DNA from: a virus
Length of the DNA: 40,122 nucleotides
Virus record (IMG/VR): IMGVR_UViG_3300011252_000355
Span: 1 to 40,122 of that record
Direction: 5' to 3' (one strand)
This document shows, in pieces, positions 9,548 to 37,193 of this stretch; the stretch's first letter is position 1, and each line of letters starts with the position of its first letter. Made by a program: the position numbers and the translations under genes. The notes beneath the pieces were generated by a model, which saw only the letters and a list, made by a program, of their open reading frames with translations, was not told the origin of the DNA and searched no databases.

Positions 9548-10021
9548 ATGGACATCATCGAACTTAAAGACTTCATCCAAGACACCGAGCAAGCCCTTGT
9601 CGATAAGGGGTATCACCGCGTCGAGGTGACCATCCGGTTGGGCGACCAGCGCCTCGACTCATATCGTCGGGAGTTCCATGTTACAATCTGGTCCGCCAAG
9701 ATCGACAAGTTCGGGCACCTTGAGTCCAAAGAGTTCTCCACCCCAAGCCACGAGGTATGTGGTATCGACAGGATGCGCGAGGTCATGATGCAAGCAACCG
9801 CGTTCGTGGCTAACATGCCCTCTATGGAGATCGCGGTCGCCAACACTCCAATCACCACACTGGAGGACGCGGTAGACTCAATATCAACTGTCGGACTTGA
9901 CAGCGGTTCTGATACCGCAGGGTTCGCAGCCGATGAGTTGACCGCAAGCATTCAAGCTGCCGTGGCTAAATACAAAGCCAACCTGCACGGCAACGGGCTG
10001 CTACTAACAGACCAATCCTAA
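9548..10021 (+). CDS. Phage protein of unknown function (first gene of cassette)
   Basis: 157 residues from the ATG at 9548. That start has GGAG at 9538-9541, six bases away, while an in-frame ATG at 9536 has no ribosome site and is itself part of the motif; the frame runs further upstream, but that part is not protein-like. The N-terminal 100 residues look like an alpha/beta domain (VEVTIRLGDQRLDSYRREFH, VTIWSAKIDKFGHLESKEFS). The rest is Ala/Ser/Thr-rich with a final helix (LTASIQAAVAKYKANL). I do not recognise the family. It heads a set of small rightward genes and ends just before a UUCG-like hairpin. Confidence 0.7.
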   Translation: MDIIELKDFIQDTEQALVDKGYHRVEVTIRLGDQRLDSYRREFHVTIWSAKIDKFGHLESKEFSTPSHEVCGIDRMREVMMQATAFVANMPSMEIAVANTPITTLEDAVDSISTVGLDSGSDTAGFAADELTASIQAAVAKYKANLHGNGLLLTDQS

Positions 10022-10029
10022 TTACCAAC

Positions 10030-10049
10030 GCGGGGGCCTCGGCTCCCGC
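10030..10049 (+). other. 8-bp hairpin with CUCG loop
   Basis: GCGGGGGC and GCTCCCGC pair around CTCG, giving a very stable tetraloop hairpin with one G-T pair. It lies between the stop at 10021 and the Shine-Dalgarno of the next gene. A near twin is at 11773-11790. No T tract follows, so mRNA processing, stability or attenuation is more likely than full termination. Confidence 0.6.
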
Positions 10050-10078
10050 ACCATTCAACCAAACTAGGAGACTACACT

Positions 10079-10381
10079 ATGCTAGACGAAATCATCAAGG
10101 CAGAAGCAAACGAGGTCACACTGGCCGACCTCATATGGAAGATTGTCTCAGTCAAAGTAGACGAGGCCATCGAAGCAAAGGTCAGCAAGATTAAGGAAAA
10201 CCTGCCAGACGAGTGGGATGTCTACGATCACTCCTACGAAATCGGTGAGGCTGCACTAGAACACATTACCTCATACGGCGGCTTTACCGAAATGGTTACC
10301 GAAGTACTAGACGAGTACGACTTCTCCGACAAGGAGACGGGCGTTGCGTCAGGCACAACCTTTACGGTCACGGTAGACTGA
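10079..10381 (+). CDS. Small acidic phage protein, unknown
   Basis: 100 residues, strongly acidic (EVTLADLIWKIVSVKVDEAI, EVLDEYDFSDKETG) and mostly helical with a beta-like Thr/Val-rich end. ATG 10079 is preceded by AGGAG at a good distance. Acidic proteins of this size in phage early regions often bind host enzymes or mimic DNA, but there is no specific evidence here. It abuts the next gene with a one-base gap. Unknown family. Confidence 0.75.
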   Translation: MLDEIIKAEANEVTLADLIWKIVSVKVDEAIEAKVSKIKENLPDEWDVYDHSYEIGEAALEHITSYGGFTEMVTEVLDEYDFSDKETGVASGTTFTVTVD

Positions 10382-10382
10382 G

Positions 10383-10646
10383 TTGGCTTGGCTAGACAGC
10401 AACGTCTGGAAGAGAGGGTCGCGGTGGCGGCTCTCTCACACCAACGGAGAGTGGATCATTTCAACCCAGCACAAAACCAAGACCAAGGCATTAGTCGAAG
10501 GTCGGAGGATGCTGCACGAAGGGAGGACCAAACAACTCAACATCTTCAAAGGAGATGGGACATGGGAGGCGTCAGAGGTATCTGATGTCTCAAATGGAAC
10601 ATCCAACCCAATCGCAACAATCAACCTACTGGGAGACAACGTATGA
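10383..10646 (+). CDS. DUF2188-like small protein (TTG start)
   Basis: 87 residues from TTG 10383; no ATG or GTG lies early in the frame and the frame begins one base after the upstream stop, so a coupled TTG start is the best reading. The core RWRLSHTNGEWIISTQH, then TKTKALVEGRRMLHEG and LNIFKGDGTWE, follows the DUF2188 pattern: a Trp/Gly strand pair, a TK-x-A helix with arginines, and a final strand with DG. That domain's biochemical role is unknown. It overlaps the next gene by ATGA. Confidence 0.65.
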   Translation: MAWLDSNVWKRGSRWRLSHTNGEWIISTQHKTKTKALVEGRRMLHEGRTKQLNIFKGDGTWEASEVSDVSNGTSNPIATINLLGDNV

Positions 10647-10822
10647 CTAGACCAACCCCGCAAGAAGCAGGGCAAACGCTTGGCAACGCCATCAAGTTCC
10701 AACTGGAGTTCATGATGCTGATGCTCCACTCAGACCGCCACAGTCAAGCAGCGCAAGCTTATGACCGCATCATCGCACTGTGCGACCAAGCAGGGCAACC
10801 CGTCAGAAAGGACGCAGCATGA
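10643..10822 (+). CDS. Small helical phage protein, unknown
   Basis: A 59-residue gene starting MTRPTPQEAGQTLG. ATG 10643 overlaps the upstream TGA as ATGA and GGGAG sits at 10631-10635. The protein is helical and Gln/Met-rich (FQLEFMMLMLHSDRHS, AAQAYDRIIALCDQAG). It ends in ATGA with the next start at 10819. Coupled overlaps on both sides are the main evidence that it is real. Function unknown. Confidence 0.7.
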   Translation: MTRPTPQEAGQTLGNAIKFQLEFMMLMLHSDRHSQAAQAYDRIIALCDQAGQPVRKDAA

Positions 10823-11016
10823 GGATAGGTGGCTACTACATGAGCGATGTCGGATACGGCCTCAAGGTCGTAGAACACGAGGGAGGCTGGTCATTCTGGC
10901 TGCAGGGTGATGACGCCCAGCAGTTCCGTGACGAGTGGCAAGCGTACAGCGAACGGGTGGACAACGACTTCCGCCACTTCCTGTCAACGCACGAATATGA
11001 CGGGCTATTCAAATGA
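10819..11016 (+). CDS. Small phage protein, unknown
   Basis: 65 residues from ATG 10819, which has AAAGGA seven bases upstream and overlaps the previous stop by ATGA. An in-frame GTG at 10780 would lengthen it by 13 residues but has no ribosome site. The sequence is aromatic-rich (GGYYMSDVGYGLKVVEHEGG, WSFWLQGDDAQQFRDEW), suggesting a small beta sheet followed by a helix. It overlaps the next start as ATGA. I do not recognise it. Confidence 0.7.
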   Translation: MRIGGYYMSDVGYGLKVVEHEGGWSFWLQGDDAQQFRDEWQAYSERVDNDFRHFLSTHEYDGLFK

Positions 11017-12162: not shown

Positions 12163-12207
12163 AAAACCAACAGCACACGCTCCTTCGTCGCATGTGCTGT
12201 TGGTTTT
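12163..12207. terminator. Bidirectional terminator between convergent genes
   Basis: AAAACCAACAGCACA (12163-12177) pairs perfectly over 15 bases with TGTGCTGTTGGTTTT (12193-12207). The stem ends in A on the left and T on the right, so each strand's transcript gets a hairpin with a U tract. It separates the rightward cassette (ending 12049) from the leftward nuclease gene, whose stop codon overlaps the right arm. Confidence 0.85.
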
Positions 12208-12661
12208 AGTACGCGGATTCCGCGCCGGAAGCCGCAAGACTTGGTTGGAAGCCGCAAGATTCCGATAACCGAATGAACATCCGAGGCCGAAGGTCCACGA
12301 ATAACTCACCAAAACTGCCGTATCGGTTGCAGCAATCGCTCTTGATGCCCGTATCAAGAGCCTTGGACCCGTCACAACCGTCAAATAAAAGAAGCCCCTT
12401 GCTAAGGGGGTCTTTGACCAAGATGTAATTCAAGCCCCCACGCGCCCAATATGCGGCATTCCACGCAATTTGATTGGACGTCAATTTTATCCGGTTACCA
12501 GAAGACACTTTTAGCTCTACCCAAAAGGGTATTCCCTGCCAGATTACATGTACATCGGGTACTCCACCCCCATGCTTGTTCTCAATCCTTGTTGCAAACG
12601 TCTTTTTCGGCAGTGATTTCCTCATTGTATTCCAAAAGTTCGCCTCCGGTCCCTTGCTCAT
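12206..12661 (-). CDS. VRR-NUC-like PD-(D/E)xK nuclease
   Basis: 151 residues whose first 75 match the VRR-NUC/Holliday-junction-resolvase-like PD-(D/E)xK core: Glu27 in RIENKHGGG, the GVPD motif (Asp36), VELKV (Glu49, Lys51) and Gln64 in SNQIAWN. Phages use such enzymes to resolve branched replication products before packaging or to cut host DNA. The C-terminal 70 residues are less conserved-looking; the DNA there has a 13-bp direct repeat (12227-12239 and 12247-12259). ATG 12661 has AAGGA eight bases upstream, so the 80-bp overlap with the upstream terminase small subunit gene appears real. Sharing a unit with terS suggests a role linked to packaging. Confidence 0.8.
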   Translation of the reverse strand: MSKGPEANFWNTMRKSLPKKTFATRIENKHGGGVPDVHVIWQGIPFWVELKVSSGNRIKLTSNQIAWNAAYWARGGLNYILVKDPLSKGLLLFDGCDGSKALDTGIKSDCCNRYGSFGELFVDLRPRMFIRLSESCGFQPSLAASGAESAY

Positions 12662-13139
12662 CGGTTACATCCTTGTACTCGGCCTCAATATCAAACGCTT
12701 GCGGGTATTTTTTCTGCAGATCAGCAAGCCGACCAACAATTTCATCCCGCGACAGTTGATCTATTGTATTTATATTCTCCCTACGGTCTACTGTCAGGCC
12801 CCCCAAAGCTGATCTAATTTTCTCAGCGTTGATTGCTGCAGAATATTGTCCATCATCTTCTGCCCCACGGGATAGCTTTGAGAGCCGTTCAAGCTGGCCC
12901 ATGATGGTGACACCATATCGCCTCTCTCTTTCCTCCCTGAGTTCCTTCACCCGTTCCACAACATGCGGGAAATCACGCCCGTTAAGCAACACAGTGGCCT
13001 GTTTACTAGACAGGCGGTACGCATATCCGGCCTTCCTTGCGCTTTCAGTATTTGTATAGATGCCTTCTGCAACATGCTTGGCAAACGTCTCTTGCCGTGT
13101 TGTCAGAGTAGGACGATGTTTACCCGTTTCTCGTGCCAT
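12582..13139 (-). CDS. terS: Terminase small subunit-like protein
   Basis: 185 residues. The N-terminal segment TTRQETFAKHVAEGIYTNTE, then SARKAGYAYR and later QATVLLNGRDFPHVVERVKE, is the Terminase_2 small-subunit pattern: a helix-turn-helix that binds the packaging site. A central helical region (QYSAAINAEKIRSALGGLTV) would make the oligomeric ring, and the acidic C-terminus would contact TerL. Length is normal. The gene is the first of a short leftward unit that starts beside the octamer array; TerL is about 10 kb to the left. A role as a general DNA-binding regulator is the main alternative. Confidence 0.75.
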   Translation of the reverse strand: MARETGKHRPTLTTRQETFAKHVAEGIYTNTESARKAGYAYRLSSKQATVLLNGRDFPHVVERVKELREERERRYGVTIMGQLERLSKLSRGAEDDGQYSAAINAEKIRSALGGLTVDRRENINTIDQLSRDEIVGRLADLQKKYPQAFDIEAEYKDVTDEQGTGGELLEYNEEITAEKDVCNKD

Positions 13140-13488
13140 ATAACCCCCAAATCAGTGTAATCAGTTTGTACTCACTGTACTCATTTTCACAGAGAAAGAC
13201 CAGTTAAAGGTAGTCCGGCACAACCATAGCGGGAAGCCAAAGTGTCAATTAAAGACCTTTTCCAGAGGTTTTGTACTCATTGTACTCACCCTGTAATCAC
13301 CTAGGGCAGGCTTAGTCCATGTTCTAAAAGGATATTTGTTAGGCTGAGTACATGATTACAAATAATACAGGATTTTTTTTCATTTTTTTTTTTTTTTAAT
13401 TTATCTGGAAAAAGGTCTTTACGTGCTCTTGTAATCACTAACGTACTATGCCATATGAATAAGGTATCATCATTTATGGAGGTTTACG
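13140..13488. promoter_or_regulatory. Divergent control region with nine TGTA(C/A)TCA octamers
   Basis: No gene lies here. Plus-strand octamers: TGTAATCA at 13156, 13292 and 13430; TGTACTCA at 13167, 13176, 13272 and 13281. Minus-strand octamers: TGTACTCA at 13345-13352 and TGTAATCA at 13353-13360. The first two triplets have mirrored order and spacing (11 then 9; 9 then 11). A T-rich tract (T8-CA-T15) lies at 13373-13397. AAAGACCTTTTCCAGA (13251-13266) has an inverted partner with one extra base at 13404-13420. A leftward -35 TTGACA is at 13243-13248 on the minus strand, with TATGGT 14 bases downstream. GGAGG precedes the ATG at 13489. Consistent with a repressor/activator array or an iteron-type origin. 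Confidence 0.8.
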
Positions 13489-14373
13489 ATGAGCAAGCAG
13501 CAAGAACTAATGAAGAATATCGCTGACAATGTTGTTGGCATGATGAAGGAGCACGGTGCGGATTGGGCCAAGCCGTGGCGCAAGGCGGTTGGTGCGACGG
13601 GCGAGCCGTTGAGTGCCAAGAAGCGTCATTACACTGGCATCAACCGGATGAACCTTGGTCTTGTGATCGCGTTGCAAGGTTATTCATCCCCTGTATTTGG
13701 CACGTTCAAGCAGTGGAAATCTTTGGGCGCTAAGGTCAAGAAAGGTTCGAGTGGCATTCCTGTAGTTTTCTATAGTCAGATAAAGATCAAGGACAAGCAG
13801 TCGGATGAGGACCGGATGGTTCCGATGTTGAAGGCATTTTATGTGTTTAACGCAGATCAGGTTGAGGGTTGGGACGGTTCGTGGATCAAGGACCAAGCAC
13901 CGGAGGATCAGGAGTGGGAAGACGCTATTGATGCTGATGCGTTGATAGAGGCATGTGGTGCCACGTTTCATCACACTCAGGGCAATCGTGCTTATTACAA
14001 TCGTGGGTCTGACAGTGTGACGGTTCCATTGCGTTCACAATTCAAGGACGCGAGTGGGTACTATGGCACGGCGTTTCATGAGTTGGTTCATTGGACGGGT
14101 CATAAGTCTAGATTGGATCGTGAGTTTGGCAATCGGTTTGGTGATGCCAAGTACGCTATGGAAGAGTTGGTTGCTGAATTGGGGGCTGTAATGTTGTCGA
14201 TCATCAGCAAGGTTGATGTTGATCCGGCTCCTGACCATGCCAAGTATTTGAACTCTTGGATACGCATGTTGGGTGAGCATCCCAACGCTATCATCAAGGC
14301 CACGTCCGCCGCTCAGAAGGCATCTGAGTACATTTTGCAATCATCTAATGCTCAGGTCGCGCAAGCGGCCTGA
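13489..14373 (+). CDS. ArdC-like antirestriction protein with zincin-like metallopeptidase domain
   Basis: 294 residues with two domains. Residues 1-125 form the ArdC N-terminal (DUF1738-type) ssDNA-binding region: PWRKAVGATGEPLSAKKRHY, GINRMNLGLV, FGTFKQWKSLGAKVKKG, FYVFNADQVEG. Residues about 185-290 form a zincin-like domain with HELVHWTGH (197-205) as zinc ligands and catalytic Glu, plus a downstream Glu in AMEELVAELG (225-234). ArdC-family proteins carried by plasmids and phages protect incoming DNA from restriction. It is the first gene of a rightward operon directly after the octamer array, with GGAGG before ATG 13489, so early expression is likely. Confidence 0.85.
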   Translation: MSKQQELMKNIADNVVGMMKEHGADWAKPWRKAVGATGEPLSAKKRHYTGINRMNLGLVIALQGYSSPVFGTFKQWKSLGAKVKKGSSGIPVVFYSQIKIKDKQSDEDRMVPMLKAFYVFNADQVEGWDGSWIKDQAPEDQEWEDAIDADALIEACGATFHHTQGNRAYYNRGSDSVTVPLRSQFKDASGYYGTAFHELVHWTGHKSRLDREFGNRFGDAKYAMEELVAELGAVMLSIISKVDVDPAPDHAKYLNSWIRMLGEHPNAIIKATSAAQKASEYILQSSNAQVAQAA

Positions 14374-16167: not shown

Positions 16168-16755
16168 ATGCAACAATTAAAAGGCTTAATAGAATATCAG
16201 GATGTTTATGTGGAGAAGATGTTTCCGCAGGGGCATGGCTTTGGGGTTAATACAGAGGGCGAAAGTGTTTTCTTTGATCCTATATTTGCAAAGAAGCATA
16301 GCTTGGAGGAGGGTTCGTTTCAAACGTTTGTGGTTGTACCAAACGCCCACGAGCAGAGGGACCGAACTCCTTGGAGGGCCGTTGGATCAGGAGCAAACGG
16401 CACGGCTCCTGCCCCAATACAGGAACCCGCAAGGCGTGTTATGGATTCAGACGAGGTTGATCGCTTGGTGCTAGATATACTAAGTGAGACGCACGACGAT
16501 GTGAACGAGGACGCTTGGTTGTGTGGGGAGATAGCGTATGAACTGCAGGAGGACCATGAAATAGATGGTCAAATGGTGAGCAATTCTTTGCACCGTTTGT
16601 TTAACCAAGGCAGGGTTGTGAAGAGCATTACGCACCAGCGTCCGGGGCTTTCTGCTAGGGGGTCGTTTGTTCGATGGGCCTTGACCTCTGCGCCGTTCTT
16701 TCCTCCGACATCAAAGGAAGTAATAGACATGGAGAAGTCGATTGAAGAAGGCTAA
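16168..16755 (+). CDS. OB-fold-like plus winged-helix-like phage protein
   Basis: 195 residues. The first 70 (EYQDVYVEKMFPQGHGFGVN, GESVFFDPIFAKKHSLEEGS, FQTFVVVPNAH) resemble a cold-shock/OB-fold nucleic-acid-binding domain: strands with aromatic and Gly residues. After a Pro/Ala linker, residues about 92-165 are helical with a wing-like end (MVSNSLHRLFNQGRVVKSIT), like a winged helix. Together this suggests a nucleic-acid-binding regulator; both domain calls are by eye. AGGAGG precedes ATG 16168. The next frame overlaps its 3' end by 14 bases. Confidence 0.6.
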   Translation: MQQLKGLIEYQDVYVEKMFPQGHGFGVNTEGESVFFDPIFAKKHSLEEGSFQTFVVVPNAHEQRDRTPWRAVGSGANGTAPAPIQEPARRVMDSDEVDRLVLDILSETHDDVNEDAWLCGEIAYELQEDHEIDGQMVSNSLHRLFNQGRVVKSITHQRPGLSARGSFVRWALTSAPFFPPTSKEVIDMEKSIEEG

Positions 16756-20417: not shown

Positions 20418-21947
20418 ATGACACAAGCTAGTAGGATGCTGGCTATCTTCGCGGGTTCGCGGGTGGCGTATGGCTCTACAAAAATAAAACGTGTGGGACG
20501 GAACGGTAAGACCGAAGCCGATAGTTGGATTGTGCGTGATCCGATTACCGAGGAGGCTATGCAGGAGCATTTAGATGGCTCGTTAGGTGTCGGGTCCATA
20601 CCGATAGACGAGGACAACGCATGCCGCTTTGGTTGCATTGACATTGACGTTTACGATCTGGATCACAAACAGCTTCAACAAAAGATTGCACAGTTAAAGT
20701 TCCCATTGTCTCACTGCCGTTCGAAGTCGGGCGGGGCGCATTTGTATTTGTTTCTTGAGCAACGGGAGCCAGCGGCGGTGGTGCGAGAGTTCCTGACCGA
20801 GATGTCTATTGCGTTGGGTTTCTCTGGGTCAGAGATTTTCCCCAAACAAGACACGATATTATCTGAGCAAGGGGACGTTGGTAACTTTATTAACCTGCCG
20901 TATTTTAAGGCAGAGGAGACGGTTCGATACTGCTTCGATAGCAAGGTTGAGGCGTTGGAGTTAGACGATTTCTTGGATCATGCAGAGAAGTCTGTCACCA
21001 CGATAGATACTCTGGAAGCTTTGAGACTTGGGGGCAAGGAAGATTTCTTTGACGGACCACCATGCTTGCAGCACATGTGTTCTCAGGGTGCAATCGCAAG
21101 TGATAGGAACACAACTCTCTTCAACTGCGGGGTGTACTGCCGTAAGAAGTGGGCCGATGATTGGCCTCAGAAGCTAGAGCAGATGAACAGGGAGCTAACG
21201 GACCAGCCTCTTCCTGCTTCTGAGATGTCTGCGCTGCAGAAATCGGTAGGCAAGAAAGATTATTTCTACACTTGCAAGCAAGAGCCAATCAAAAGCTACT
21301 GTGATCCGGACGTATGCCGCACCAGAAAGTATGGTGTGGGGGATGACATGCCGGACGCGCCCAAGTTGGGCGGTCTTGTAACCATGCTGTCGGAACCTCG
21401 TTTGCATTTCTTGGATGTGACAGGGCGTAGGGTGCAGCTATCAACGGAGCAGCTACAGAACCAGACGCTGTTTCAACGGGCATGCATGGATCAGCTTAGT
21501 ATTATGCCGCCCACTATGCGCCCTGCAAAATGGCAGATGTTGATCTCTGCGTTGATGGTGAACTCCACACGCATAGAGGTTCCGGAAGAGCTAACTTACT
21601 CGGGACAGTTTAAAGATCATCTACGCATGTACTGCACCAGTAGGATACGGGCGGTACAGGCAGAAGAGGTTACGCATGGGAAGCCGTGGACCGAGGACGG
21701 GTTTACCTCGTTCATGATCGCGGGTCTCATGGAGTATTTGCGCAATCGAAACTTCACTCACTACACAAGGGCCGAGGTTACGGAAGCGTTAAAGAAGCTG
21801 AACGGTGGTAAGGATGCAGAGTACAAGCTGAACTATCGCAAGGCTGATGGAAAGAGAACAACGGCGCGTGTTTGGCGTGTGCCTGCGTTCGAGGAAACGG
21901 ATGTAGAATTAGATGTAAAGGAGATTCCAAATGACATCCCCTTCTAA
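20418..21947 (+). CDS. Archaeo-eukaryotic-type (TOTE-like) primase
   Basis: 509 residues. The N-terminal half has AEP primase motifs: FGCIDIDVYD (metal-binding Asp at about 75-77), SKSGGAHLYLF (102-112) with the His that contacts nucleotide, and GSEIFPKQ (137-144), followed by NFINLPYF. This combination is characteristic of the TOTE/phage AEP branch. A middle region has paired Cys (YTCKQEPIKSYCDPDVCRTR), a probable zinc site like other AEP primases. The C-terminal half is helical and may be a PriCT-type domain; no helicase domain is fused. The last residues are EIPNDIPF, another SSB-tail-like end. AAGGA precedes ATG 20418. Confidence 0.85.
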   Translation: MTQASRMLAIFAGSRVAYGSTKIKRVGRNGKTEADSWIVRDPITEEAMQEHLDGSLGVGSIPIDEDNACRFGCIDIDVYDLDHKQLQQKIAQLKFPLSHCRSKSGGAHLYLFLEQREPAAVVREFLTEMSIALGFSGSEIFPKQDTILSEQGDVGNFINLPYFKAEETVRYCFDSKVEALELDDFLDHAEKSVTTIDTLEALRLGGKEDFFDGPPCLQHMCSQGAIASDRNTTLFNCGVYCRKKWADDWPQKLEQMNRELTDQPLPASEMSALQKSVGKKDYFYTCKQEPIKSYCDPDVCRTRKYGVGDDMPDAPKLGGLVTMLSEPRLHFLDVTGRRVQLSTEQLQNQTLFQRACMDQLSIMPPTMRPAKWQMLISALMVNSTRIEVPEELTYSGQFKDHLRMYCTSRIRAVQAEEVTHGKPWTEDGFTSFMIAGLMEYLRNRNFTHYTRAEVTEALKKLNGGKDAEYKLNYRKADGKRTTARVWRVPAFEETDVELDVKEIPNDIPF

Positions 21948-22149
21948 CCGTTTGTTAAGGGTGTCTGAGGTTGCAAAGCTTTTGGGAGTATCGACCTCAA
22001 CTCTCTACAAGTGGGTAAAACTGGGCCAATTTCCACGGCCCATAATGCTTGGGCCTATGAACCCCAAGCAGCGACAGACCAAGCGTTGGGTTCTGAGCGA
22101 AGTGGAACAATGGGTAAACGAAAGGGCTAGGGAAGATGATTACGAATAG
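21931..22149 (+). CDS. AlpA/MerR-like helix-turn-helix regulator
   Basis: 72 residues with a clear excisionase/AlpA-type winged HTH: LLRVSEVAKLLGVSTSTLYK then WVKLGQFPRPI, a typical turn and wing, and a C-terminal WVLSEVEQWVNER. AAAGGAG sits seven bases before ATG 21931. It overlaps the primase 3' end by 17 bases and the SF1 helicase start by 14. Roles of such proteins include transcription control and directionality factor; no integrase is seen here, so a regulatory role is preferred. Confidence 0.8.
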   Translation: MTSPSNRLLRVSEVAKLLGVSTSTLYKWVKLGQFPRPIMLGPMNPKQRQTKRWVLSEVEQWVNERAREDDYE

Positions 22150-23665
22150 TGAACTGATACTGGGACCGCCCGGAACTGGGAAGACTTACACGTTGATGGA
22201 GCGGGTGAACGATTACTTTGAGGATGGCGGTGCGCCCCATAGATTTGCGTTTGTTTCGTTCACTCGCAAGTCAATTCAGGAAGCGATGGAACGGGCTTGC
22301 TTGAAGTTTAACCTCAAGCCAAAGGAGTTGCCGCATTGCAGGACGTTGCATGCCACGGCCTTTCACGGCCTTGGTCTGCAGACGGCTGATGTTATGGGGG
22401 CTGATGACTACAGGAAGCTATCGGGCATCTTGCGTCTTGATCTCTTGGCGAAGGACGGGGTTGATGTGGCAGACGGTCTGCCTAAAACAATGCTCTCAGG
22501 GTCCGGCGCTCAGTACTTAAACATAATCGACAGAGCGCGGTCGCGATTGGTTTCTCTTGAGCAGGAGTTCAATGATTCGGGCAACCATAGTCTTGCCTTT
22601 TCCAAGCTGCAGAATGTCGAGGCCACACTGACCAAGTACAAGACGCAGGAAGCCAAGCTAGACTTTGGGGATTTTATTTCTCGGTATGTAGAGATTGTTA
22701 TTCCTCCGGAGCTAGACGTATTGATTGTTGACGAGGCCCAAGACTTAACGCCGTCACAGTGGCAGATGGTTTCAAAGATGTCGGAGCATGCCAAGCGAAC
22801 TATCATTGCAGGGGATGACGATCAGGCTATCCACGAATGGACAGGCGTTGATGTAAACAAATTCTTGTCAGCATCTAATAAACAGACTGTGTTGAGTCAG
22901 TCGCACCGGATGCCACGGGTAGTGCATGATCTGTCCCAACGCATTGTGAAGCGCATAGACAATCGCATCTCCAAGGAGTTCGAACCAACGGAGCGAGAGG
23001 GTAAGGTCACGTACCACATGAACTTTGAGACGGTGCCTATGGATGAGGGATCGTGGACCTTGATGGCACGTACCAACTCCTATGCTTGGGACATGGCAAA
23101 GCAGGTCAGGGAGTATGGATACCTGTATAGCTTTCGCGGTCGGTCAAGCGTGAGCGAAGCAGTGGCTGATGGTATTGACGTATGGCGGAAGCTGCAAGCT
23201 GGAGAGCGCGTCAGTCGCATGCGTGTTAAGGAGTTGTATAAGAACGTTCCGAAGATGGGGGACTATCGGGTTGTTAAGCGGGGTGCTACTGGGTTGTTGG
23301 ATGCTGCAGCGGATGACGCTATGCTTTCATACGACGAACTTGTTTCTGAGTTTGGTTTGGTTGCTCCGATAGATCGACCTGCTACGGACGTAATGAACCT
23401 CGGGACGGAAGACAGGTTATACATACAGTCGATTGAGGCACGAGGCGAAAGAATTACTGACACGCCTCGTATTAAAATCTCAACCATCCATGCTATGAAG
23501 GGTGGGGAGGACGAGAATTGCTTGGTGTATCTAGGGTCCACGAAGGCTTGTCTGGAAGGGAAGAACCCAGACGCGGAGCATAGGGTGTTTTATGTTGCCG
23601 TGACTAGGACCAAAGAGAACCTACACATTCTGGAATCCGACAAGCGATACAGGTATATGTTGTGA
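22136..23665 (+). CDS. Superfamily 1 (UvrD/Rep-like) DNA helicase
   Basis: 509 residues. Motif I GPPGTGKT (10-17), Ia FVSFTRKS (39-46), motif II DEAQD (199-203), motif III GDDDQAI (226-232), motif IV-like LSQSHRMP (253-260), and a C-terminal motif V/VI region (KISTIHAMKGGEDENCLVYL, FYVAVTRTKENLHIL). This is a 3'-5' UvrD-family helicase, expected to unwind the fork or process recombination intermediates. It overlaps the small gene behind it as GTGA. Confidence 0.92.
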   Translation: MITNSELILGPPGTGKTYTLMERVNDYFEDGGAPHRFAFVSFTRKSIQEAMERACLKFNLKPKELPHCRTLHATAFHGLGLQTADVMGADDYRKLSGILRLDLLAKDGVDVADGLPKTMLSGSGAQYLNIIDRARSRLVSLEQEFNDSGNHSLAFSKLQNVEATLTKYKTQEAKLDFGDFISRYVEIVIPPELDVLIVDEAQDLTPSQWQMVSKMSEHAKRTIIAGDDDQAIHEWTGVDVNKFLSASNKQTVLSQSHRMPRVVHDLSQRIVKRIDNRISKEFEPTEREGKVTYHMNFETVPMDEGSWTLMARTNSYAWDMAKQVREYGYLYSFRGRSSVSEAVADGIDVWRKLQAGERVSRMRVKELYKNVPKMGDYRVVKRGATGLLDAAADDAMLSYDELVSEFGLVAPIDRPATDVMNLGTEDRLYIQSIEARGERITDTPRIKISTIHAMKGGEDENCLVYLGSTKACLEGKNPDAEHRVFYVAVTRTKENLHILESDKRYRYML

Positions 23666-23808
23666 TTAAGATTGTGGACGTTCGCAAGGAGAACGAAGGG
23701 GTTGTTTTGTACGGTTGGGTTGATGGTAAAGAAGTCATACGCAAAGAGCTTACAACAAGAGAAGCTTTAAATCTCATCAAGAATATGGCGGATAAATTAA
23801 ATGGCTAA
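23662..23808 (+). CDS. Small protein between helicase and polymerase (GTG start)
   Basis: 48 residues from GTG 23662, which overlaps the helicase stop as GTGA; the stop is eight bases inside the polymerase gene. The sequence (MIKIVDVRKENEGVVLYGWV, DGKEVIRKELTTREALNLIK) has two strands and a helix, a compact fold. The tight overlaps make it likely real. Function unknown; perhaps an accessory of the polymerase. Confidence 0.6.
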   Translation: MIKIVDVRKENEGVVLYGWVDGKEVIRKELTTREALNLIKNMADKLNG

Positions 23809-25702
23809 AAAAGATAAGACCATAAGCTTCCTTGAGCGAATGGAAATGGATAACTTGGACCCCGATTGGAACATCCCGTTCGAGTTTCCTGATCTGACAG
23901 GCTACAAAGAAATAGCCGTGGACCTTGAGACAAGAGACCCCAACCTTACCACCCTTGGCCCCGGATGGGCTAGGGGTGACGGGAATATCGTGGGCATTGC
24001 GGTAGCAGCGGGGGATTACGCTGGCTACTTTCCTATTCGTCACCAGAACGGACACAATCTTGATCCTAAGATGACGCTGCGCTGGTTTAAAAAGCAGATG
24101 GCTACACCTCGGATTGATAAGATCATGCACAACGCAACCTATGATGCAGGTTGGCTATACGCGGAGGGCATAGAGGTACAGGGCCGGATCATCGACACGA
24201 TGGTTGCCGCTCCTTTGATAGATGAGAACAGGTTTTCTTACAGCCTCAACAATCTAGGCCGCGATTGGATTGACATGCGTAAGAACGAGAAGATGTTACG
24301 CGCTGCGGCAAAAGACTTTGGCCTTGATCCTAAGTCAGAGATGTGGCGTCTGCCTCCGATGTACGTTGGTGCGTATGCAGAGCAGGACGCAATCATGACG
24401 TTGAAGCTTTGGCATCGGCTCAAGATAGAGATTGGCGAACAAGACTTGGGCGCAATCTTTGATCTCGAAACGGGCCTCATACCTTTGATGTTAGAGATGC
24501 GTAAGAACGGGGTGCGTGTTGATCTGGACAAGGCGGATCAAGCTAGGGATGGCTTGCGAAAGCAAGTCAAGAAGCTGAAAGATTTTATCAAACACAAGAG
24601 CGGGGTGAAGATAGAACCGTGGGCTGCAGAGTCAGTGAAGAAAGTCTTTGAGGCTTTGGACCTATCGTATCCAAGCACGGAAGCTGGCGCACCGTCCTTC
24701 ACCAAACAGTACCTGTCCTCTCACCCGAACGAAGTGGCTCAGGCTATCGTTAAACTGCGCGAGTTTGACAAGGCAGACGGTACGTTTATTGAAACCATAC
24801 AGCGGCACAGTCACAAGGGCCGCATACACTGCGAGTTCCACCAACTACGGAGCGATGACGGAGGCACGGTAACCGGACGGTTCTCATCCTCAAACCCGAA
24901 CCTGCAGCAAATCCCTGCGCGTGACCCTGACATCAAGAAGCTGATACGAGGCTTGTTCATTCCGGAGGACGGATGCCAGTGGGGTTCGTTTGATTATGCT
25001 AGTCAGGAGCCAAGGCTCTTGGTTCACTTTGCGGCAAGCGTGTCCGGTGTGCATAGGCATGACATGGTGGATCAGATTGTTAAAGAGTACCATTCGGGGG
25101 ATGTCGATCTGCACCAGATGGTGGCAGACTTCGCAGGGATTACACGCAAGCAAGCTAAGACTGTGAACCTTGGGATCATGTATGGCATGGGAGTTGCAAA
25201 GCTGGCTGCTCAGTTGTCGATCACGCCAGACGAGGCCAAGGCATTGCTGGCTACGCACCATTCGAAGGTGCCGTTTGTTAAAGGGCTTGCGGAACTGGCA
25301 TCGGTACAGGCATCCAAGCATGGTTCGATACGCACGTTGCTTGGTAGGCGGTGCCGCTTCCATTTATGGGAGCCGCGCACCTATGGGTATGAGAAGCCGC
25401 TCCCGTTAGAGGATGCGCAGAAAAAGCACGGCATGAACTTACGCAGGGCGTTTACATACAAGGCACTCAACAAGTTGATCCAAGGATCAGCCGCCGACCA
25501 AACCAAACGGGCAATGTTGGATTGCTATAACGAGGGTCTGGTTCCATCGCTCACGGTGCATGACGAACTGTGCTTTTCGGTACAGGATCAGAAGCAGGCG
25601 TCACGCATTACCGAGATCATGGAGCACGGTCTTGATGACGTTCTGAAAGTACCGTCCAAGGTGGATGAGGAGTTGGGTAGTAACTGGGGCGAGGTAGGGT
25701 AA
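23801..25702 (+). CDS. polA: DNA polymerase A with 3'-5' exonuclease
   Basis: 633 residues. The exonuclease domain is intact: DLET (Asp41, Glu43), NATYDAG (Asp115) and YAEQD (Tyr192, Asp196). The polymerase domain has motif A SFDYASQEPRLL (Asp398), motif B RKQAKTVNLGIMYGMG and motif C VHDE (His587, Asp588, Glu589). In motif B the position equal to Phe762 of E. coli Pol I is Leu457, where Phe or Tyr is usual. There is no 5'-nuclease domain, as in most phage enzymes. It is the last gene of the rightward replication operon, followed within 10 bp by a strong hairpin. Confidence 0.96.
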   Translation: MAKKDKTISFLERMEMDNLDPDWNIPFEFPDLTGYKEIAVDLETRDPNLTTLGPGWARGDGNIVGIAVAAGDYAGYFPIRHQNGHNLDPKMTLRWFKKQMATPRIDKIMHNATYDAGWLYAEGIEVQGRIIDTMVAAPLIDENRFSYSLNNLGRDWIDMRKNEKMLRAAAKDFGLDPKSEMWRLPPMYVGAYAEQDAIMTLKLWHRLKIEIGEQDLGAIFDLETGLIPLMLEMRKNGVRVDLDKADQARDGLRKQVKKLKDFIKHKSGVKIEPWAAESVKKVFEALDLSYPSTEAGAPSFTKQYLSSHPNEVAQAIVKLREFDKADGTFIETIQRHSHKGRIHCEFHQLRSDDGGTVTGRFSSSNPNLQQIPARDPDIKKLIRGLFIPEDGCQWGSFDYASQEPRLLVHFAASVSGVHRHDMVDQIVKEYHSGDVDLHQMVADFAGITRKQAKTVNLGIMYGMGVAKLAAQLSITPDEAKALLATHHSKVPFVKGLAELASVQASKHGSIRTLLGRRCRFHLWEPRTYGYEKPLPLEDAQKKHGMNLRRAFTYKALNKLIQGSAADQTKRAMLDCYNEGLVPSLTVHDELCFSVQDQKQASRITEIMEHGLDDVLKVPSKVDEELGSNWGEVG

Positions 25703-25772: not shown

Positions 25773-28700
25773 CTACTGTCCCATCCCAAGTCTTCGGGCA
25801 ATGTCGATATTGCGGAAGTCCCCGAGTAACGTAGACGGAATGAACTGACGCAAGCCTGTATCCGCTTGCTGCACTGGAGCCGCTGCAGGGACCGTAGGAG
25901 CGGGGTTAGCTGCAACAGGAGGGGTAACCTGCATTTCTACAGGAGCAGCCTCTACAGGCACTTCCACAGGCTCCTCTGTGCGTTCAGCTAGAGGCATAAG
26001 CCTGCGTTCGTTTGACAGCCTATTAAAATCTGCATATGGAGGGTTATCAGTCACCCTTGCTTGGCCCTCTCGAACCTCAAGGTTGATGTCTTTTATTAAG
26101 TCTCTGCTTGCAAGCCCCGGAGCAAACTCCCCTCGCATGATTATAGTTGCTTCTCTTCGACCAAGCCCCGCTACTTGCACGAGATTTTTTCGTATCTCGG
26201 GATCAGATAGACCAATCTTTTTAGCTGCTTTTATGTCGGCATAAAGTTTGCTTTGATCCCGATACAGATTATTCAAGTAAGAGTTCCACGAACTTATCAT
26301 CTCTTGGGACGTTGTATCGTTGTCCCTGATGGCGCGAGAAGCTGCAGTCTTGGCGCTAGAACGCAAGCTCAAATACTCTTTGCCCTTAAAATTAAAATCC
26401 TTTCGGAGATCAAGAGTGATGGGCGTAAACCCTGATATTATACGGGCCAACTCTTCTTCAGAAGTGTATTGAAGTCCCTGCGCAGTGGGGGTGCCAGTAA
26501 TAGAACGAACTAAACGCCCTTCTTCTAACTCACCCTTACGTTCTTCGCCAAACATCTTAACATATGCAGGTATAAATCCTCCAAGAACATGAGTTACGCC
26601 CTTAGCTACCTTATCCCCCAAGGGATCACTGTCTCTCCATATTGGAGTTCCCAATGAAGTTTTACCGCCACGACCGATTGGATTATCAGAGGGCAGAGAA
26701 TCACGCAGACGTTCGAAAGCCATAGACTCAGACCCAAACGGCTCTGCATAGGATGTCAAACCAGCCCATGCTCCCGATGCAATACGCTCCGCTGCACCCT
26801 TGTCTAGCTCACCTTTCTCAGAGTATTCCCTAAGAGCCGCACGAACAGGATCGTAAACAAACGAATACGGAGCAACGTAACTCTGATCTACAAGCTGCAT
26901 TTTGCCGCGTTGGTCGTTGTTCAAAACAATGAACTGATGACCCGCAGTGTATGGAGCCAGTTGAGTTTGAGCCGCGTCCATCTGCTCTTGAGTTGTGCCT
27001 GTTGCTCTCATGGATGCTTGAGTTGCAGCATACGGAGCGATACCAGCAACAGAGATGTATGAGGTCAATCTCTGTGATCCAATAGCCCTCATAGAACGTT
27101 CAAGCTGTCGGGCTTTCTGCTCACCTATCTCTTGTTTCAACTGGTCAGACGCTTTGAAGCTTAGTTCCTTTAAGCCTCTAGTCATGGTGTTTACAGAGTT
27201 GCGAATATTTTCTGATGCAAACGAAGTAAAGCTACCCAAGAAGGGAACTTTGTCCAAGGCCTTCACCGCTGAACCAACACGAGAGTATATTGGCATCGTG
27301 TCCTTAACAGTATCAGCCGCAAGAACATCTAAAAACAACATGTCGCCACGAGAGTTTGTGCTGCGTTTAGCAATACCTTGATCTATCAATTCCCGTTGAA
27401 CAGAAGACATCATTGCTGCGTCCTCAATATCCACCGCCTTACTAATAGCTGTAGCATAGCGAGATCGCTCACCCAAAACACTCATGACTTTAAAGAAAGA
27501 GTCAGATTCAGAATAAGTTTTTTCAAAAAACTTCATTAAAGGAAGGCTGTCAAAAAACTTGGTTGAGACTTCGCCAACTTTACCAGCAACACTCAAGTCT
27601 TTACCAACCGATTGCAACTCTTTCACAGCTTTAACCAAGAGGCTAGAGTCTCGAACTCCCATCTCGCCCATCATACGAGCCATACTTTGAACGCCCTCTT
27701 CGTCCAACGTTGCTAAGTTTCCAGAGTGCATTCGTGCTGCATCTACAAAATCCATGTCCCGTCCAAACAAACCGTTTGCAGCAAGCATCTGCATGTTGCC
27801 CAAAATGTTTCTTATTTGTGAAAGAGGGTTTGGAATAATAGCCAACTTCTGCACGAGACCCTTGGCTTGAACGGCTAAAGCAGCCGCTTCATTCATCGGG
27901 CTTTGACCCATACGAGCGCCAACAGATATTGCATCCGCTATCTCAGGCGCAACATACGCCCCTGACAGATCGCCATACGATCCGTTAAATGTAGCAGCGT
28001 TGTCAAACTCTCCTAGTTTAACGTATCCCAAAGTCTGCAATTCTTTTTCTGCACCCTCAATACTCTCTCTGGTTGCCATGCTTCCAAAGCTGCTAGGTGC
28101 GGTGGTCGATTGCATCTCTCCGAGTTCATCTAGCTTTATGACTGAGGGCCGACCTCCACTGCGAAGTAAATCAAGTCCCACTCCCTGAGACTTTGTTAGA
28201 GCAGGGTCTTGTGCCATCTGACGATAGAACCGTAGGCCCCCGCTTGTTTGAGCAAGGTTGTCTATTGTAAAAATAAAATTTTCTTTGAGATCGTCTCGTA
28301 CACCCATTAACTTTTGTAGGTTAGGGGACGCATCCATCAGAGGTTTACGTTTAATAAACATATCATCAGCCACATCAAGAAGAGGACCGCCCAACCTTAC
28401 GTTGTCTGCACGGCCTTTCTTTAATGACTCAACCATAACTTTAGCCGCTGCCTTGGGGTCCATGCCGTGATACACCGACTCCATACCAAGGGAACTAAAC
28501 AGGGTTTTACGCGCCTCTTGCTCCAACCCTTGTTCGCTCAATCCCAGATTTTGGTTTCGAAGGTTTGTTTTAATCTCGTTTAGAGCTTCCTTGTATACGG
28601 CGCTGTCCGGATCAATGCCTTTAGAATAAAAACTAACAGGGTTCTCATGAACATCAAATCGTCTACGCAAGTAAACCCTTTGTGCTTTTTGGTTTTTTAA

Positions 28701-34989: not shown

Positions 34990-37193
34990 TATCGTTTCCC
35001 GTCTGGTCTAATATCTACACGAGGCACACCCAATCTCCAAAGGACGTTTGCATCTGTAGATTGTAGCTTGAGTGTAAAGCTACGGCCCCGTAACCGTGTA
35101 AAGTATTGGTTCGTGTATTGATCTACAGGCGTACTAGATGTTTTGGACACAGTGTTTGTTGAGGAGTTTTGATCGGCTTGCCCCGGAAAACTCTTGGTCT
35201 CCAAGATGAAATCTAACGAAGACGTATCAACAGTTTCTCTAAAGTTAATGTCCGGTATTACCCTGTTAATAAAAGAAAACTGATTGCCTTCTGTAATAGA
35301 CATATCCCCCGATTCAATAAACGAAGTCATAGCCGCGCCGTCATCTTGTGCGCCCACCTCTTGATTATACAAAAAGTTGTTAGTTCCCGCCGCAAGAGGC
35401 AACGAAGAAATACCACGATCCAACCACGCCGTTCTAGCTAGGTTTCCTATAAACCAAAGCTTCTCAAGGTAATTGTAAACTACATACCTGTCGTTCTCGG
35501 TTGAGTCCGCAGATGGATAAAACCACCACACCTCGGAGAAGGACACGTTGGCTCCCGCAACAATCTTGTCAGACTGAGAAGTGTTAATATCATCAAATAC
35601 ATAGTCCCTAACAGTGCAGGGTATTCTTTGAACCGCACCCGTGAACGCATAAAACTCTGCCGATCCCATCCAAAACACCGCATCGTCCACCGCAACCGCA
35701 GCCTTGGGACTAGCAATAGTAATGTTTTCAGAGATTAAGTTTATACCAAAGGTAAACGGTGGCCCAAGGAACTGCATTGCGTGAATAGAAACGTCTGTAA
35801 ACACCAGTATCTGTTGCCGTGTTTCAAGTGCTTGAATAATCTTAGAGCCAGAACTTATACGCAAATCACCCGCTGTATTGGTAGAGGTAGGATACCAATC
35901 GACAGGGTTTTCCTGACTGCTAAACCGTATCAACAAAGGGTCTTGAACCCCATTGCCGTCTGTCGAAGAGGACGTAAGACCAAGACTATCCGCGCCAAAT
36001 GCAATCACATGCCTGTCTCGGTCAGACAAAAGAACCTGTGTGGCTATAGTAGGAACCGAGGTCCGTGTGCCGAGGCCCAAGGCGCTGTCTGTTAAGAACT
36101 TGGCTCGTGTACCTACACCATTTGTTTTGTCCCAATAGTAAATCTTACCGTTTCTTTCGTTCAACAACAGGTCTTCGCCAAAGTTGTCTTGTGTCCAAAT
36201 GCGTAGGTTTGCAGAGGGCGTGATTGTTCCTGAAACAAGAGCCAATCCCCAGCCAGAAAAGTCATCCGCTGTAAGCGCGTTGCCTGTTGCAAGTCGAACC
36301 GAAGATTGGTTTGCATGTGTCGCGGCGGCGGTGCCTTTATGACCTCTGGTACAGCCCGTTAAGTCGTTAGAGCTTATACCCCCTACCAAAATAAGTTCGT
36401 CATCTATTAAAACGATATCGCTGGCTACAATACCCGCAGTGTTAGCCACGGTGATGGTTGTATCACTAGAAGAAAGTGTGCCGCCCTCGTTTACCGTTGT
36501 AGTAAGAGCGCCCGTAGTTGTGCCACCCCAAGCTCCCGCGCCCCAACCAGTACCAAACACTGAGCTATTAAGACCCGTACCAATTTGATAGGTTCCTACA
36601 ACACTACTACCACCGTTACCCGTATCACTAGCGTTAGCAGAGACGGCAGTAACGCTTATACCACCAGAAACTGTAACGCTTTCTATAGTACTGACGGTCC
36701 TCGCAGATATCTTGTATGTGTTTCCATCCACAACTTCTGTGACCTGATACTCTTGGTTAAGAACGTTTGCCGTGACGTTGCCGCCCAAAGAAGCCGCACC
36801 AGAGAAAGTAACAAAGTCATTAGCCACACAACCATGATTAGGGTCCGCTACTGTAATTACGGACGAGCCGTTTGTAGCAGAAAAGGTTACGTCTCCCGCA
36901 GATGTTGTCTGCCTAATCGGAGTAACGTCCTTAAAATCAACACCCTCTTTAATGTAGAATTTTAATTCTGTCCCAAGGCCCAGAAACTTTTCGCCGCTCA
37001 ATGCTACAAACTCATGCATCCCACGGCATATTCCTAAGAAAGCGTTGTTGGTGTTTTTTTCCCAACCGTTTAATTTCTCAGGATACCCAAACCGAAACCG
37101 CACTTTGTCACAATCCACCCAACCGTTTTCTTCAGAATACGGAGTAGTTTCTTTGTTAATTCCGGGTTTAAATTTTAAGTTGGCTAATGGCAT
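34989..37193 (-). CDS. Large beta-rich virion protein (P22 gp10-like?)
   Basis: 734 residues, strongly beta. It starts FKPGINKETTPYSEENGWVD and FRFGYPEKLNGWEK, an opening typical of podoviral tail-stabilising proteins, and later has DRDRHVIAFGADSLGL, FTDVSIHAMQFLGPPFTFGI, YVVYNYLEKLWFIGNLART and WLDRGISSLPLAAG, a layout suggesting a propeller-like repeat. About residues 97-300 look like an inserted domain rich in Ser/Thr/Gly (TTTVNEGGTLSSSDTTITVA). Similarity to P22 gp10 (DNA-stabilising tail factor) is a weak memory-based call. Confidence 0.75.
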   Translation of the reverse strand: MPLANLKFKPGINKETTPYSEENGWVDCDKVRFRFGYPEKLNGWEKNTNNAFLGICRGMHEFVALSGEKFLGLGTELKFYIKEGVDFKDVTPIRQTTSAGDVTFSATNGSSVITVADPNHGCVANDFVTFSGAASLGGNVTANVLNQEYQVTEVVDGNTYKISARTVSTIESVTVSGGISVTAVSANASDTGNGGSSVVGTYQIGTGLNSSVFGTGWGAGAWGGTTTGALTTTVNEGGTLSSSDTTITVANTAGIVASDIVLIDDELILVGGISSNDLTGCTRGHKGTAAATHANQSSVRLATGNALTADDFSGWGLALVSGTITPSANLRIWTQDNFGEDLLLNERNGKIYYWDKTNGVGTRAKFLTDSALGLGTRTSVPTIATQVLLSDRDRHVIAFGADSLGLTSSSTDGNGVQDPLLIRFSSQENPVDWYPTSTNTAGDLRISSGSKIIQALETRQQILVFTDVSIHAMQFLGPPFTFGINLISENITIASPKAAVAVDDAVFWMGSAEFYAFTGAVQRIPCTVRDYVFDDINTSQSDKIVAGANVSFSEVWWFYPSADSTENDRYVVYNYLEKLWFIGNLARTAWLDRGISSLPLAAGTNNFLYNQEVGAQDDGAAMTSFIESGDMSITEGNQFSFINRVIPDINFRETVDTSSLDFILETKSFPGQADQNSSTNTVSKTSSTPVDQYTNQYFTRLRGRSFTLKLQSTDANVLWRLGVPRVDIRPDGKR

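Follow-up and report, generated by a model that had tools for sequence, protein, structure and literature searches.

Type-specific pairing of initiators and origins is known from plasmids ColE2 and ColE3, whose Rep proteins discriminate between the two origins, and from lambda and its relatives, in which related phages likewise carry distinct pairs of O protein and iterons; O, whose iterons are situated within its own gene, does not belong to the primases. Each ColE2-type Rep primase works on its cognate origin (PMC5304414, PMC10345425), and RepA-PFP relatives comprise primase, PriCT and helix-turn-helix (HTH) domains (PMC5304414). In PLE, the RepA domains covary with the iterons under pressure from Odn, an origin-directed nuclease of phage ICP1 which copies the specificity of RepA and is a documented cause of switching (PMC8263062). 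The text consulted on NrS-1 describes a phage primase-polymerase of the archaeo-eukaryotic primase (AEP) type which depends on an 8-nt recognition sequence and whose C-terminal region is a hexameric ring, and mentions no variable triplet code (PMC7102993). Short iterons and AEP-related primer synthesis are also combined at the mobile-element origin of SCCmec, equipped with CCPol-MP and the Cch2 helicase; there, however, the AAGTG iterons are bound by the C-terminus of the helicase and not by the primase (PMC7581432).

Here, we describe an octamer array and an AEP primase in IMG/VR virus record IMGVR_UViG_3300011252_000355, whose 40,122 nucleotides are referred to as the window. The record is classed as linear and is therefore probably incomplete; its TerL is 54–60% identical to those of phages HTVC027P, HTVC023P, 023Pt_psg01 and DSL-LC04, and no DNA similarity to named phages was found at the array. 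Although similar to the ColE2 Rep/ori or PLE RepA/ori pairs, the system is a variant of its own. In ColE2 and ColE3 (class C theta replicons), an AEP-type primase doubles as the initiator, and the same is proposed here. In contrast to these plasmids, the replicon is a phage and, instead of one small origin within or directly behind the rep gene, has 7–9 octamer iterons with an inverted repeat at a distance of ca. 7 kb from the gene of the primase. The triplet types number at least eight and are proposed to be read by a wing hairpin. With PLE the locus shares an initiator DNA-binding domain (as proposed here) which covaries with the iterons between close relatives. PLE, however, uses a RepA_N initiator, swaps the whole domain and has two origin types with semi-palindromic iterons of ca. 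30 bp, whereas many types and point changes in a primase wing are found here, and RepA_N is absent from the Pfam hits of the primase. New features are a triplet with multiple alleles, which switches repeatedly in near-identical phages, and a residue-base code.

Architecture of the octamer array

Nine exact copies of the octamer TGTA(C/A)TCA are present between positions 13156 and 13437 of the window, in the divergent intergenic region between terS (12582..13139, minus strand, Terminase_2) and a gene for an ArdC-like anti-restriction protein (13489..14373, plus strand, PF08401 and PF18818), near both start codons. They start at 13156, 13167, 13176, 13272, 13281, 13292 and 13430 on the plus strand and at 13345 and 13353 on the minus strand, with a spacing of 8–11. 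The end of terS is overlapped by the gene of a small nuclease-like protein (12206–12661, phrog_2165), which is kept beside terS in the relatives.

The array begins with an outer left triplet TGTAATCA-TGTACTCA-TGTACTCA (13156..13183, plus strand) upstream of terS, which lies outside the inverted repeat. The left arm AAAGACCTTTTCCAGA of the latter (13251..13266, plus strand) pairs with the right arm TCTGGAAAAAGGTCTTT (13404..13420, plus strand), forming a 16/17-base repeat with a one-base bulge. Between the arms, a core direct triplet TGTACTCA-TGTACTCA-TGTAATCA (13272..13299, plus strand) is followed by the inverted iterons TGTACTCA and TGTAATCA (13345..13360, minus strand) and by a T8-CA-T15 tract (13373..13397), the candidate unwinding element; a single outer iteron TGTAATCA (13430..13437, plus strand) follows the right arm. 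A third inverted iteron, present in most relatives, is degenerate in the window, which thus has two. Two hallmarks of iteron origins are present at this site, namely short repeats clustered in a single region of the genome and an adjacent A/T-rich tract as candidate unwinding element.

These data agree with the initial annotation with respect to the nine copies within 282 bp, the mirrored triplet spacing (11-9 and 9-11), the two minus-strand copies and the T8-CA-T15 tract. The inverted repeat, listed there with 16 bp, is correct apart from the bulge; as a correction, the array lies between terS and ardC with its first triplet outside this repeat. No copies had been noticed elsewhere; two further ones lie within the ArdC gene (14325) and an SNF2 gene (17797), at chance level. 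In the window-wide count proposed there as a check, 11 copies were found, whereas 100 dinucleotide shuffles averaged 2.1 and never exceeded 7. A second proposed check, GC-skew mapping, gave a divided outcome: the cumulative minimum lies within ca. 200 bases of terS and the array in four of eight genomes (the window, G007, G005 and G044; G and L numbers denote relatives) and the global minimum lies elsewhere in the other four, the skew being confounded with gene direction and hence suggestive at most as a sign of an origin.

Conservation in related phages

The array is conserved, as had also been put forward for examination, in 18 close relatives (TerS identity 92–99%), where the octamers occupy identical offsets and number 8 or 9 wherever the contig spans the region; one sub-group carries the pure TGTAATCA form. 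At loci with a TerS identity of 65–75% the array is found at the same place with a different octamer, near-uniform in each array, namely TGTAAACA, TGTACTCA, TGTTCTCA, TGTCCTCA, TGTATCCA, TGTAAATA or the one base shorter TGACTCA (array types TGACTCA and GTAAATA were missed by the automatic motif caller and read by eye). The plan common to the relatives consists of an arm, three direct copies, a GGGC-spacer, three inverted copies, the A/T tract, the second arm and one or two direct copies. Their arms, of the CTATAGACA..TTTTTCCAGA type, are located as the left arm in the window and retain TATA-like words. The A/T tract is always present, with A-runs on this strand in most relatives and T-runs in the window, such that its composition is kept and its strand sense is not. 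Every relative examined has terS next to the array, while other genes may take the place of ardC. One array was seen per genome, no extra octamer copies covarying with it were found elsewhere in the genomes, and own-type octamers outside the arrays are at or below chance, except for G044 with 14 copies versus 6.9 naively expected.

The layout of the inverted repeat, including an A/T tract, recurs in the named complete genomes of 023Pt_psg01 (L462, 13618–13861; iteron TGTGCCA) and DSL-LC04 (L461, 24415–24636). L487 and L488 (ca. 1831–2170) show GTGACAA iterons in this layout and possess a very different primase wing (Tyr468, Lys470, Asn480).

The location by two divergent start codons and the TATA-like words in the arms would also suit an operator, through which the primase, or a protein with the same reading head, controls the terS and ardC promoters while replication starts elsewhere. 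We consider this rather unlikely, because the right-hand neighbour gene varies between relatives, further octamers are not enriched in genomes other than G044, the A/T tract persists irrespective of its strand sense, and the proposed reader is a replicative primase (see below). Between the two options of the initial annotation, an operator or an origin composed of iterons and an unwinding element, the fixed layout across phages and the co-evolution of the iterons with this primase favour the origin.

Concerted switching of the central triplet

Comparison of the arrays reduces the octamer to TGT-NNN-CA, whose central triplet is near-uniform inside an array and, over hundreds of relatives, switches as a unit between phages (AAA, AAT, ACT, TCT, CCT, CAT, ATC, CAA); with its variable first base, the iteron takes the general form (T/C)GT-NNN-CA. 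The 113 unique array regions are distributed among AAA (39), AAT (30), ACT (9), CCT (9), ATC (8), TCT (4), CAT (2) and CAA (1), the remainder being two called TTA and nine left unclassified by the script. Seven triplets occur within a single lineage with 97.6–100% identical terS and nearly the same flanks, consisting of L288 (CCT), L289 (CAT), L290 (ACT), L291 (AAT), L292 (CAA), L293 (TCT), L299 (AAA) and L177 (AAA). Most of the change in their alignment is confined to the six core triplets, while spacers and flanks mostly stay. Mixed arrays are found in the window (ACT/AAT), in L249 (AAT left, AAA right) and in L289 (CCT left, CAT right); the contigs are metagenomic, so that an isolated odd array like that of L289 may be a chimera.

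Within an array, the first base often varies more than the triplet, which is therefore apparently read by something. Gene conversion, or pairing of direct and inverted copies in RNA or a cruciform, might create uniformity with no reader at all, and such copies could indeed pair. We nevertheless give this explanation hardly any credence, since the triplet mostly changes without its spacers and flanks, the triplets of the left and right side need not agree (L289, L249), and the contradicting covariation with the primase would be left without a reason. The two octamer versions of the window had been suggested to mark two affinities or two proteins. A second protein is unneeded: C and A at position 5 are alternative readings of a single variable triplet, which occurs in pure or otherwise mixed form in relatives, and the primase wings of the window and G007 differ solely in the matching residue 470 (Lys versus Val). 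We conclude that the mixture is a tolerated or an intermediate state between the AAT and ACT types.

Candidate readers

Several neighbouring proteins named as possible binders in the initial annotation do not follow the triplet. Between G001 (TGTAAACA) and G002 (TGACTCA), the TerS and ribbon-helix-helix (RHH) proteins are identical and the replication genes 97–100% identical. TerS is moreover 99–100% identical across seven triplets, and no TerS column tracks the triplet. The same observations render a packaging (pac/cos) site bound by the adjacently encoded TerS highly improbable, even though terS adjoins the array in all relatives examined. The RHH protein is identical across triplets; an omega-type heptad array was dismissed as well, RHH specificity having no link to the repeat and the spacing of 8–11 departing from contiguous 7-bp repeats. 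The AlpA-like HTH protein (21931–22149) is 100% identical in several phages whose arrays differ (ca. 40–97% to other relatives) and was rejected as reader; it could bind the arms of the inverted repeat. SNF2, helicase and polymerase do not follow the triplet either, and the presence pattern of the methyltransferases dcmA and dcmB does not fit. In the L184/G032/L186 lineage, no gene tracking TCT versus AAA was detected from −1.7 to +9.2 kb; the L184 contig stops inside the primase, whose C-terminus it thus does not show. Orphan cytosine methyltransferases with a target-recognition part that varies between close relatives are encoded near the putative origin or after the polymerase in G044 (35079–36077), G046 (9856–10866), G031 (23099–24274), G033 (27012–28319) and G009 (L128) (positions in the oriented contigs).

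The first candidate was an S1/CSD-like plus HTH protein (16168..16755, plus strand). This protein and its homologues (G001, G002, L175, L181, G022) have a PF22707-like N-terminus and a C-terminal HTH which is repeatedly swapped, lost or duplicated among close relatives. Its C-terminal half is replaced between G001 and G002, and the window and G007 proteins are 62% identical in comparison with 91–97% for most neighbours, which had favoured this protein. However, L208 and G001 share the recognition helix despite ACT and AAA arrays, several lineages with only the N-terminal domain, that of L184/G032/L186 among them, switch arrays too, and no column corresponds one-to-one to the triplet. The candidate was dropped, and we judge its role as reader to be very unlikely.

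The AEP primase and its predicted wing

The gene at 20418..21947 (plus strand) codes for an AEP primase, the proposed initiator, identified by its AEP-TOTE domain (PF22548, E 1e-16 in Pfam). The catalytic half has the AEP fold according to structural matches with CAPP prim-pol (pdb-code: 7nqf, E 1e-10) and RepB′ (3h20, E 5e-5). Compared to the ColE2-type succession of AEP, PriCT and C-terminal HTH domains, PriCT_1 gives only a weak Pfam match (E 0.13), and the C-terminal part, residues 429–489 (21702..21884, plus strand), is predicted to be a winged helix. In the AlphaFold2 model (pLDDT 80), helices 434–443 and 451–461 precede a hairpin (468–474/480–489). Modelled in isolation (pLDDT 72), the domain adopts a like fold, whose best match is PadR-like and weak (E 0.17); searches of the C-terminal domain against Pfam and the PDB yielded no significant match.

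The near-identical genomes G001 and G002 with their different iterons have primases differing in 14 of 507 residues, 12 of which are located at 460–489. The primases of G032 and L186, both with AAA arrays, are identical; those of G032 and G033 (ACT) differ at 467–470, among other places, and those of G044 (CAT) and G046 (ATC) mainly at 469–481. The wing segments of L251 (ACT) and L243 (CCT) are distinguished by a single Thr to Asn exchange.

Covariation of wing residues and triplet bases

The correspondence was tabulated from all contigs holding both array and primase. Residues 468, 470 and 480 of G032 are equivalent to 470, 472 and 482 of the window, encoded as Lys470 (21825..21827), Asn472 (21831..21833) and Thr482 (21861..21863), all on the plus strand; all three reside on the predicted wing hairpin. 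In G032 numbering, Ala, Asn and His at 470 correspond to A, T and C as third triplet base (NNN3), and Thr is found at 480 if the first base (NNN1) is A, and Asn, Lys or Ile otherwise; each rule holds for 25 of 25 unique primase/array pairs, five of whose array types were set manually (L285 as ACT, G010, G005 and G039 as AAA, G049 as AAT). Residue 468 largely tracks the second base (NNN2), with Val/His for A, Lys/Arg for C and Ser/Ile for T, apart from the two exceptions L302 and L224, both with Lys480.

Permutation, which ignores kinship, reproduced the NNN3 rule in 0 and the NNN1 rule in 1 of 100,000 cases. Because of this neglect, changes were counted on a primase tree built from residues 1–435, i.e. 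excluding the columns under test. On this tree, NNN3 and residue 470 undergo 8 changes each, in parallel, and NNN1 and residue 480 undergo 5 each. All seven separate pairs differing in NNN3 also differ at residue 470 according to the rule, and eight pairs agreeing in NNN3 agree at 470. An open scan along the whole primase places the best-matching position of every triplet base on one and the same hairpin, and among ca. 2,600 variable columns of 12 proteins primase residue 470 alone matches NNN3 one-to-one.

The rules were fixed in writing before the later scans. Tested thereafter, L455 and L459 obey all of them; L473 (CAT, Asn470, Thr480) conforms to the rule for NNN3 but breaks that for NNN1, and L479 (GTATGCA iterons, Asn470, Ser480) breaks both, provided that its array is read in this register. 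Since such distant primases, ca. 50–56% identical to the scan query, partly deviate, the exact code appears to be clade-bound and the array plan wider. The primases of L373, L392, L458 and L460 carry Ser at the position corresponding to NNN3; no array was found on those contigs. Contacts of Asn with A, of His and of Lys/Arg with G, and of Ala, as a small aliphatic residue, next to the methyl group of T are established in protein-DNA recognition. The observed residue-base pairings would fit a wing reading the complementary strand.

Proposed mechanism and implications

On the basis of these sequence comparisons, the octamer array is most likely the replication start site of this marine phage. 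We infer that it is probably an iteron origin read by the wing of the AEP primase, which would act as initiator, with window residues 472, 470 and 482 reading NNN3, mostly NNN2, and NNN1, respectively. The origin would consist of the (T/C)GT-NNN-CA iterons flanking the A/T-rich tract inside the long inverted repeat. The C-terminal winged-helix domain of the primase might bind the iterons via its hairpin, in the window by Lys470, Asn472 and Thr482 on a mixed ACT/AAT array, and the bound primase would bring itself and the helicases to the origin and start DNA synthesis, the A/T tract presumably serving as the unwinding site. As wing and iterons change together, each phage type would possess a private origin.

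Why the origins diversified is addressed by a more tentative proposal, to which we would not yet give even odds: many private origin types may coexist in the phage population, like blood groups, the amino-acid-to-base code of the wing permitting origin and initiator to switch together, and this diversity might be maintained by selection because it prevents co-infecting relatives, satellites or origin-directed nucleases from cross-use.

Few cases are known in which initiator and origin repeatedly change specificity among almost identical genomes. Here, three bases are tracked by a few hairpin residues, one of which has changed eight times in parallel. This provides many natural specificity swaps and, as a putative, naturally evolved recognition code, an existing set of variants on which DNA recognition by wings can be studied. 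Origin compatibility between phages may become predictable from sequence. The system offers an opportunity to ask why replicons diversify their origins, be it due to superinfection, satellites or origin-targeted defence, and a widespread group of uncultured aquatic phages thereby gains a putative origin together with a probable initiator.
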